Assembly: GCA_024685175.1 (NCBI GenBank)
Contig: JAIKWD010000012.1
Span: 62,001 to 126,000 of the forward strand
Origin: Bacteroidales bacterium
GTDB taxonomy: Bacteria > Bacteroidota > Bacteroidia > Bacteroidales > WCHB1-69
Length of the DNA: 64,000 nt
Reading direction: 5' to 3'
Every line of letters begins with the position of its first letter. Position 1 is the first letter of the stretch. The notes below the pieces were generated by a model, which was not told the DNA's origin, ran no database searches, and was given only the letters and a program-made list of their open reading frames with translations. The position numbers and the translations under genes are program-made. Shown here piece after piece: positions 17,542-64,000 of the stretch.

Positions 17542-17572
17542 GCCGTCTACTAACTGCTAACGGCTAACGGCT
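17542..17572. repeat. 7-nt-phased degenerate repeat array (GCTAACG type)
   Basis: GCCGTCT ACTAACT GCTAACG GCTAACG GCT, exact 7-nt period. Confidence 0.7.
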
Positions 17573-17578
17573 TTTTTT

Positions 17579-26542: not shown

Positions 26543-27616
26543 ATGAAATTATCAGAATTTAAGTATTACCTGCCTCAGGATTTGATTGCTCTCTACCCTT
26601 CTGAAGAGCGCGACGAGGCCAGAATGATGGTTTTGGACCGTAAGGCTAAGACCATTGAGCACAAATTATTCAAGGATGTCATCAACTATTTTGACGAAGG
26701 TGACCTGTTTGTCATGAACAACACCAAGGTCTTTCCTGCTCTTCTGTATGGTGAAAAAGAGCAAACCCGCGCCAAGATCAGGGTGTTCCTGCTTCGCGAG
26801 TTGGACGAGGAGAGTCGCCTTTGGGACGTACTGGTCGACCCTGCCCGCAAGATTCGCATTGGCAACAAGCTCTGTTTCTGCGAAGACGACAGCTTGGTGG
26901 CTGAAGTGATTGACAACACTACCTCTCGTGGCCGTACGCTTCGTTTCCTTTTCGACGGTGACCATGACGCTTTCAAGAAAAAGTTGATGGAGCTGGGCAC
27001 CACCCCTCTGCCCGAAGACATCCAGCGTCTCCGCGAAATCGTACCCGAAGATGAAAATTACTATCAAACCATATACGCTTCAGAAGAGGGCGCTGTCGTC
27101 GCTCCGGCAGCAGGTTTCCACTTTAGCAGAGAACTGCTTAAACGTATGGAGTTGAAAGGCATTGAACGTACATACATCACGCTTCACGCCGGTCTTAGCA
27201 ACTTTAACGACATCGAAGTGGAAGACCTCTCCAAACATAAACCCGACTCCGAACGCATGATCATCCGCGCGGATGTGGCTGACACCATCAACAAAGCCAA
27301 GGACGAAGGTCACAAGATTGTCATGGTCGGCACCACCACTACCAAAGCCCTTGAATCGTCCGTCTACGCAAACGGTCATGTAAAGACGACTCAAATGAAC
27401 GGCAAAGAGGACACTTGGACCAACAAATTCATCTATCCTCCCTACAACTTCATGGTAGGTGATGCTATGATCACCAACTTCCATGCTTCCCAAAGCTCCA
27501 TGCTGATGATGGTGGCCGCTTTTGGCGGTTACGATTTGGTGATGCGTGCATACAAGGAAGCCGTGGCCGAGAAGTACAGATTCCTCACATACGGGGATGC
27601 AATGCTGATAATCTAA
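26543..27616 (+). CDS. queA: S-adenosylmethionine:tRNA ribosyltransferase-isomerase
   Basis: [64 protein letters not shown]. Confidence 0.95.
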
Positions 27617-27646
27617 AATCCAAAGATCAAAAATCAAAATTCAAAG
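27611..27646. repeat. 7-nt-phased degenerate repeat array (ATCAAAA type)
   Basis: ATCTAAA ATCCAAAG ATCAAAA ATCAAAA TTCAAAG; first unit contains the queA stop codon. Confidence 0.6.
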
Positions 27647-27664
27647 TTTTAACCGACATATACT

Positions 27665-45175: not shown

Positions 45176-45263
45176 TCTGGCCTATCCACCAACACGATCG
45201 CTTCTCAATATTGTTTATGCATATTGGACTCTACTCCTTTAATATATCCCTACTACCCAGCAA

Positions 45264-45291
45264 ATCACCAATTCCTCATTCCTCATTCCCC
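45264..45291. repeat. 7-nt-phased degenerate array (ATTCCTC type) overlapping the tdk 3' end
   Basis: ATCACCA ATTCCTC ATTCCTC ATTCCCC. Confidence 0.6.
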
Positions 45292-45866
45292 TTCGCGGCC
45301 TCGAAACAATGTCTGCACAACGGCTCATACGCATCCTTTTCACCCAACAACACCTGATCTTTTGATGCGACAATACGATGGGAATAGTTCGCCAGGTCGC
45401 CGCAATGGGTACAGATAGCGTGCTGCTTGCTCACATATTCGGCCACGGCCATCAGTTTGGGCATCGGGCCAAAGGGATTACCCAGATAGTCCATATCCAA
45501 CCCGCTGACAATCACACGGATACCCGCGTTGGCCAAGGTATTGCACACATCCACGACACCATCGTCAAAAAACTGCACCTCATCGATGGCCACCACTTCT
45601 ACGGACTCCATATTCACATAGAGCAGAATTTCCGAAGAGTTGTGTACGGGGGTGGAGACGCGGGAGTTCTCATTGTGGGAAACCACATCCACATCGTCGT
45701 AACGCACGTCTATAGCCGGTTTGAAGAGCTCTATCTGCTGGTGCGCAAATTCGGCCCGGCGGATGCGGCGCAACAGTTCTTCGGTCTTACCAGAAAACAT
45801 CGAGCCACAGATCACTTCGATCCATCCTTTCTTACTGCTTCTATTTGCTTTATTTTCTAAAAACAT
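45276..45866 (-). CDS. tdk: Thymidine kinase
   Basis: GWIEVICGSMFSGKTEELLRRIRRAEFA; VVAIDEVQFFD; CTHC/CRHC zinc ligands. Confidence 0.95.
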   Translation of the reverse strand: MFLENKANRSSKKGWIEVICGSMFSGKTEELLRRIRRAEFAHQQIELFKPAIDVRYDDVDVVSHNENSRVSTPVHNSSEILLYVNMESVEVVAIDEVQFFDDGVVDVCNTLANAGIRVIVSGLDMDYLGNPFGPMPKLMAVAEYVSKQHAICTHCGDLANYSHRIVASKDQVLLGEKDAYEPLCRHCFEAAKGNEE

Positions 45867-62314: not shown

Positions 62315-63556
62315 TTATTTCAATTTGAATGCTTCCTTGATCTTGTCCACATAGTCCAACTTCTCCCACGGGAAGAAGGTCACCATCTTACCGTTTAATT
62401 TTTTGCGATAGGAGTCGCGACCGAAATGGCCGTACGTGGCGGTGGGTTGGTAGATGGGGCTCTTGAGTTGGAACCGCTTGATGATCTGATATGGCGTCAT
62501 ATCGAAGATTTCGCCAATCTTGACGGCGATTTCGCCGTCACTCATCTTCTTCACCTTGGCAGTGCCGTAGGTGTTGACATAGAGGCCCACGGGCTCGGCC
62601 TTGCCGATGGCGTAGGCCACTTGCACGAGCACCCGGTCGCAAAGGCCCGCAGCCACCATATTCTTGGCAATATGACGAGTGGCGTAAGCGGCGGAACGGT
62701 CCACTTTGGAAGGATCCTTGCCTGAGAAGGCACCACCGCCGTGCGCACCGTGCCCACCATATGTGTCCACGATGATCTTGCGGCCGGTCAAGCCAGTGTC
62801 GCCGTTCGGTCCACCAATGACAAACTTGCCCGTCGGGTTGACCAGGAATTTATTCTCGTAATCGAACTTGTCGAAGAGCCGCTGCACGTCCTTCGGACAA
62901 TTATCAATGACTCTCGGAAGCAAATACTTGCGCAAGTCGCTCTTGATGGACTGCTGCATCGCCTTTTCCTCGTCGAACTCATCGTGCTGCGTGGATATGA
63001 CGATGGTGTCGATATGCTCCGGCTTGCCGTTGTCGGCATACCGCACGGTAACTTGCGACTTGGAGTCGGGACGGAGATACGTCATCACCTTGCCCTCCTT
63101 GCGGATGGCGGCGAGTTCCTGCACCAACATTTGCGCCAACTCGATGGTGAGCGGCATAAAGTTGTCCATCTCGTTGCAGGCATAACCGAACATCATACCC
63201 TGGTCGCCGGCGCCTTGATTCTCTTTCTTGGCACGCTCCACGCCTTGGTTGATGTCCGAGGACTGGTTGTGAATGGTGGAAATGATACCGCACGACTTGG
63301 CGTCGAATTGGTAATCGCTCTTGGTGTAGCCCACCTCCTCGATCACCTTCCTTACCACCTCATCGATGGGAACATACGCCTGCGATTTTACCTCTCCCGC
63401 GCATACTACCAATCCTGTAGTTGTCAATGTTTCGCAAGCCACTTTTGATTCGGGATCCTGAGCCAGGAACGAATCCAACAAAGCGTCTGAAATTTGATCA
63501 CACAGTTTGTCCGGGTGTCCTTCAGATACTGATTCAGATGTGAATAGATAGCTCAT
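62315..63556 (-). CDS. metK: S-adenosylmethionine synthetase
   Basis: [57 protein letters not shown]. Confidence 0.97.
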
Positions 63557-63609
63557 AACTAACTGATTATAAGGTTAAACATAAAACACAGAAAACGGGA
63601 GGAAATGGT

Positions 63610-63659
63610 CTTGTTTTAGCATTTTTTCTTGTGGTTGCAAGCAGTACAAATCTGTCCAC
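63610..63659 (-). promoter_or_regulatory. SAM-II-like riboswitch candidate in the metK 5' leader
   Basis: Minus strand GTGGACAGATTTGTACTGCTTGCAACCACAAGAAAAAATGCTAAAACAAG: GTGG/CCAC P1, GATTT, TTGCAA and GCTAAAA in the SAM-II order and spacing. Confidence 0.7.
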
Positions 63660-63670
63660 GTTTTCAGGCC

Positions 63671-63680
63671 GCAAAGATAC
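63671..63680 (-). promoter_or_regulatory. -7 element for metK
   Basis: GTATCTTTGC on minus strand, just upstream of the riboswitch candidate. Confidence 0.6.
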
Positions 63681-63686
63681 AAAAAA

Positions 63687-63721
63687 TAGCAGATAGCGAT
63701 TAGCTGATAGCGGATAGCAGA
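63687..63721. repeat. Five 7-nt-phased units TAGCNNN
   Basis: TAGCAGA TAGCGAT TAGCTGA TAGCGGA TAGCAGA. Confidence 0.8.
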
Positions 63722-63754
63722 AAAAAATTATTGACTAACTAATAGAAAATTATC

Positions 63755-63786
63755 GCTATATGCTATCTGCTGTCTGCTAACCGCTT
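63755..63786. repeat. Inverted partner array GCTANNN
   Basis: GCTATAT GCTATCT GCTGTCT GCTAACC GCTT, exact 7-nt period. Confidence 0.75.
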
Positions 63787-63792
63787 TTTTTA

Positions 63793-63801
63793 TATCTTTG
63801 C
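63793..63801 (+). promoter_or_regulatory. -7 element for the saccharopine-dehydrogenase-like gene
   Basis: TATCTTTGC 34 nt before ATG 63835. Confidence 0.55.
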
Positions 63802-63834: not shown

Positions 63835-64000
63835 ATGGCAAAAGTTCTTATCATCGGTGCAGGCGGCGTGGGTGCCGTCGTAGCACACAAATGCGCTTCC
63901 GTACCGGAAGTCTTCACAGAAATCATGCTCGCCTCCCGCACGAAGGCCAAATGCGACAAGATAGCGGCCGAAATCGGCGGCAACCGCATCCAGACCGCAC
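63835..64000 (+). CDS. Saccharopine dehydrogenase / carboxynorspermidine synthase-like protein (truncated by window edge)
   Basis: MAKVLIIGAGGVGAVVAHKCASVPEVFTEIMLASRTKAKCDKIAAEIGGNRIQTA, Rossmann glycine motif. Confidence 0.85.
   Translation, partial: MAKVLIIGAGGVGAVVAHKCASVPEVFTEIMLASRTKAKCDKIAAEIGGNRIQTA

Follow-up and report, generated by a model that had tools for sequence, protein, structure and literature searches.

Related insertion elements and repeats

The closest described systems include the intervening sequences (IVS) of 23S rRNA genes in Coxiella and Leptospira. These IVS are small and hairpin-ended, contain an S23p (PF05635) ORF in the loop, lie inside the 23S rRNA genes, and are excised by RNase III. 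In the Coxiella 23S IVS, which has been termed selfish, a tandem run of the heptamer GACAGAT immediately precedes the S23p start codon (PMC4990558). The gene-bearing elements described below (cassettes) are likewise small and hairpin-ended, and their loop contains the PF05635 ORF; the Coxiella heptamers beside the S23p ORF fit this picture. However, the cassettes lie between protein genes, and their stem consists of 7-nt arrays, unlike that of the 23S IVS. The copy in the window (the whole 64,000-nucleotide stretch analysed, from a Bacteroidales bacterium) has the inverted stem ends of an IVS, but it does not lie in an rRNA gene and contains no ORF; a PF05635 ORF is found in a cassette of the same genome, C35:122301.

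The window copy also resembles the MITEs, being short, gene-less, inverted-ended, intergenic, and absent in relatives. The genome also contains a candidate for a gene-bearing partner from that repeat family, namely a single PF05635 cassette whose TAGC arrays have the flavour of the genome. The copy differs from MITEs in that its ends are degenerate tandem arrays and not a fixed terminal sequence, and in that it has no known transposase partner; the promoters around it have diverged, so that a target duplication is unreadable at this site.

A third group comprises the cyanobacterial STRR, the GGGANTN and GGGGAYT repeats of Xanthomonas and Nostoc (PMC4692102), and the TAACTGA arrays (PMC4679880), which are intergenic tandem 7-nt units that are partly fixed. 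The window pair shares all of these features. PMC4692102 describes heptamers as over-represented among bacterial repeats and proposes slippage as their source, and inverted pairs are recorded in Xanthomonas; in the portions available, neither report connects these repeats with insertion or with genes for four-helix-bundle proteins. In the open-access literature, nothing was found that links PF05635 to heptamer arrays beyond the Coxiella IVS. Finally, the Avd protein of diversity-generating retroelements belongs to the same fold family as the cassette protein. Unlike in the Avd systems, an unsystematic look beside the cassettes revealed neither a reverse transcriptase nor a template/variable repeat.

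The array pair between the metK and saccharopine-dehydrogenase-like genes

The left neighbour of the array pair is metK (S-adenosylmethionine synthetase; 62315-63556, minus strand), and the right neighbour is a saccharopine-dehydrogenase-like (SDH) gene, which starts on the plus strand (63835-64000) and continues beyond the window (L038:3836-5044). Bacteroidota promoters have the -7 consensus TAnnTTTG. The -7 element of metK is CAAAGATA in plus-strand letters, which is TATCTTTG on the minus strand (63672-63679); that of the SDH gene is TATCTTTG on the plus strand (63793-63800). The metK leader contains a SAM-II riboswitch (RF01726, 56.7 bits, E = 3e-10; 63606-63665, minus strand), which is a neighbour outside the element and begins roughly at the expected metK transcription start.

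Between the two promoters, the sequence reads directly as two phased arrays. The left arm (63687-63721, plus strand) consists of five TAGCNNN units, TAGCAGA, TAGCGAT, TAGCTGA, TAGCGGA, and TAGCAGA; from this reading and the other arrays of the genome, the genome-wide unit is TAGCNGW. An AT-rich spacer of 33 nt (63722-63754, no strand), forming the hairpin loop, contains neither a four-helix-bundle gene nor a remnant of one. The right arm (63755-63785, minus strand) is an inverted array of the same family, with four GCTANNN units (GCTATAT, GCTATCT, GCTGTCT, and GCTAACC) followed by GC. Five phased TAGC units occurred in 0 of 20,000 order-1 shuffles of the window intergenic region, and at least two lag-7 arrays in 3 of 5,000. 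The pair is predicted to form a long hairpin with inverted ends, and its single-strand fold is far more stable than those of shuffles (z = -6.3 for DNA and -7.5 for RNA). The preliminary description had reported paired, inverted, 7-nt-phased arrays that could form a large hairpin; the arrays are exact and non-random, and the folding scores agree with the proposed structure.

Among the same-genus genomes checked for the gene, metK and SDH are divergent in four (G002, G008, G014, and G035). The syntenic metK upstream region was compared, as the preliminary description had proposed, and the array pair is missing in all four: the two promoters stand back to back, and the empty site reads GCAAAGATAC-GCTTTTTT-CTTATATTTGC, with a slightly variable T run. 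In the window genome, about 95 additional bp follow GATAC and precede the T run. They represent a lineage-specific insertion between otherwise intact divergent promoters; with its A6/T7 ends, the segment absent from the four relatives spans 63681-63792 (no strand).

Association of inverted arrays with four-helix-bundle genes

In the genus, 44 of 72 PF05635 genes have arrays on both sides, and 42 of these 44 pairs are inverted and of the same family. In unselected samples, arrays on both sides were found at 40 of 930 genes (Fisher p = 2e-34 versus PF05635). An inverted same-family pair was present at four of these 40 genes, three of which are themselves four-helix-bundle genes; about 927 other genes therefore yielded one. 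Inverted 7-nt pairs of one family are almost a diagnostic mark of PF05635 genes. A Bacteroidota-wide sample gave a weaker signal (arrays on both sides of 7 of 33 PF05635 genes, all inverted). Around PF05635 genes, lag 7 was again the sole period that stood out. The arrays also have a polarity: upstream arrays are G-rich (67:9), and downstream arrays are C-rich (58:4). The gene-less inverted pairs have the same polarity as the gene-bearing cassettes (8:0, with the window pair included), and the window pair shares the cassette layout of inverted same-family 7-nt arrays with the G-rich arm leading.

The best and only strong PF05635 gene of the window genome, C35:122301, lies between TAGCAGA and TCTGCTAACTGCTAT arrays. 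These arrays are inverted and have the unit flavour of that genome; the relatives lack this stretch. In the predicted RNA fold of this cassette (z = -4.1), the ORF is enclosed by a stem that the arrays close, an arrangement shared with rRNA intervening sequences. The cassette protein was assigned to PF05635/TIGR02436 by profile matches. It also matches the Avd model NF033474 (E = 2.5e-5, below the model cut-off), and a relative has a solved structure (2gsc, XCC0516). PF05635/TIGR02436 is the family of the S23p protein of the 23S rRNA IVS and is distantly similar to Avd. Comparison of the window spacer with the interior of the C35:122301 cassette showed no similarity above shuffles, and an internal deletion of that cassette was rejected as the source of the spacer.

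The window feature is probably the gene-less, MITE-like form of an IVS-like hairpin element that is associated with four-helix-bundle genes. The pair fits the gene-less class in its same-family inverted arms, polarity, short spacer, and empty site. Counting against this reading are the unreadable target duplication, the lack of a four-helix-bundle gene or remnant, the spacer that does not match the local cassette, and the weaker signal across Bacteroidota. The complete element would consist of a PF05635/TIGR02436 gene between inverted degenerate 7-nt arrays that pair into a long stem. The hairpin may be copied or mobilised, probably with the aid of the four-helix-bundle protein acting in trans together with a polymerase or recombinase. 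After insertion, the arrays might grow, shrink, and change their unit through local 7/14-nt duplication, so that the units would differ between loci and species; any effect of the window element on metK or SDH expression would be incidental.

Cassettes, hairpins, and empty sites on plasmids

Similar genes were found on cyanobacterial plasmids. Among the first 11 genes, seven have arrays on both sides, six of them inverted; among control genes, one of 80 does. One plasmid site occurs in several states. In Trichormus, it contains a 428-bp cassette flanked on both sides by GTAAT, which probably represents a 5-bp target duplication. The site is empty in N. linckia and Aulosira, with 98% flanking identity. 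In Brasilonema, it holds an 82-bp gene-less hairpin with the GGAGTCA/TGACTCC units of the Trichormus cassette, and in Nostoc C052 a truncated cassette that ends inside the ORF. Another site bears a cassette in N. edaphicum, a gene-less hairpin with the same GGGAACA/TGTTCCC motif in ATCC 53789, and neither of them in C057. These comparisons show that the versions with and without a gene represent states of a single type of element. The filled and empty plasmid pairs also offer clean material for direct mobility tests.

Cassettes were seen in several phyla. A Gemmatirosa plasmid (L379) has a four-helix-bundle gene between inverted 8-nt arrays (GGGCAGGA / TCCTGCCC), so the period need not be 7; a Riemerella cassette has inverted heptamers. 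We tentatively propose, at slightly less than even confidence, that minimal mobile elements of several phyla, composed of a four-helix-bundle gene and 7-nt hairpin arms and having gene-less derivatives mobilised in trans, are the source of many heptamer repeats in Bacteroidota and cyanobacteria, with the rRNA IVS as one branch. Such a relationship would join three loose ends: the common genes annotated as 'four helix bundle protein', the degenerate heptamer repeats of cyanobacteria and Bacteroidota, and the origin of the rRNA IVS.

Four-helix-bundle genes were also seen within CRISPR-Cas operons of Anabaena sp. 90 pANA02 (L367), Pseudanabaena pPg_01 (L370), and a Picosynechococcus plasmid (L374). 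The gene is flanked by cas6 and cas4 in type I-D operons, and by cas10 and a cmr3-family gene in III-B; heptamer arrays are present at two of the three. These genes may be inserted hairpin cassettes and not Cas components.

Degenerate arrays across the genus and their possible local growth

The preliminary description had recommended a pattern scan of the genome and its relatives, and had named a lack of enrichment or of further occurrences as grounds for abandoning the pattern. In the sampled stretches on which the genome-wide counts rest, TAGCN3TAGCN3TAGC gave 53 matches in the window genome versus 10 for the reversed-letter control, and about 28 TAGC arrays remained after inspection; neither ground for abandonment therefore applies. 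Most of these 28 are single and unpaired, which counts against the element reading. The pattern is present in 34 of 40 genus members, and its variable bases have a genome-specific flavour. The control pattern CGATN3CGATN3CGAT is itself common in G035, G032, and G010, where it is probably another array family and therefore a conservative control.

A motif-free analysis gave a similar picture: intergenic 4-mers match themselves at lags 7, 14, and 21, and coding 4-mers do not. In samples of four genomes, 27, 26, 36, and 79 intergenic lag-7 arrays were found, with at most 13 at every other lag, about one in shuffles, and 2-20 in 298-434 kb of coding DNA. Such degenerate arrays pervade the intergenic DNA of this genus. 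Unit families are many, including GAATTTT, ATTCCTC, AGTGATC, and GGTTTAG. One candidate cause, a role as stop-codon arrays (a heptamer stop covers all frames), was rejected: the enrichment was only 1.24-fold and unspecific, since AGC/GGC were more enriched.

The strongest alternative is local growth of a degenerate microsatellite, in which 7-nt-biased slippage acts in free intergenic DNA, the inverted partner arises by fold-back template switching, and the four-helix-bundle protein binds or needs the hairpins. Over all families, the similarity of nearby units exceeds that in shuffled order (z = 3.7 and 4.2 at distances 1 and 2), with local copying of 7- and 14-nt blocks. Where one orthologous promoter was compared, the unit differs from species to species or is missing, and the arrays are unrelated and of 6, 7, or 8 nt; slippage explains this equally well. 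The near absence of arrays from coding DNA and the published heptamer excess with its proposed slippage (PMC4692102) point the same way. However, local growth fails to explain why inverted same-family arrays occur at PF05635 genes but not at other genes, or why cassette, gene-less, and empty states exist at one plasmid site. In the TAGC arrays, moreover, the similarity of adjacent units does not exceed random expectation, and the last base alternates; slippage was therefore rejected as the only cause. The preliminary description had considered the repeat unlike a slippage microsatellite; this holds for the TAGC arrays, which lack local copying, but not across families, where 7/14-nt duplication occurs. 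As a full account of the window pair, local growth is possible but doubtful.

Regulatory and RNA-level alternatives

A regulatory or RNA-level role, taken jointly, appears improbable. The preliminary description had suggested a phased protein-binding array or insulator between the metK and SDH promoters. By hand count, 12 of 28 TAGC arrays start beside an outward-facing -7 element, versus one reversed, and within the unit TAGC is constant and position 5 varies almost freely; the conservation of the core is inflated because the search pattern required TAGC. Four same-genus species keep the same genes and promoter pair without arrays, the unit varies at the orthologous promoter, and dozens of unrelated unit families behave similarly. 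A binding array or insulator is therefore quite unlikely. An RNA-level element, such as the transcript-end structure also suggested there, part of a riboswitch, or a processing hairpin, is least probable of all: the predicted hairpin is very stable and the cassette form is predicted to fold like an IVS, but at this locus both inferred transcripts begin downstream of the pair, which misfits a transcript end, and the SAM-II riboswitch of metK is separate and outside the pair.

An Rfam search of the window pair returned only sub-threshold plant miRNA models, which are generic hairpins. In another species (L084), the SDH-like start is preceded at a distance of about 150 bases by inverted telomere-like GGTTTAG / TAAACCC heptamers; they lie between divergent promoters and have the layout of the window pair with a different unit. 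Three more lag-7 arrays are present in the window, at 17542-17577 (GCTAACG), 27608-27654 (AAAATCC), and 45260-45298 (CCTCATT).
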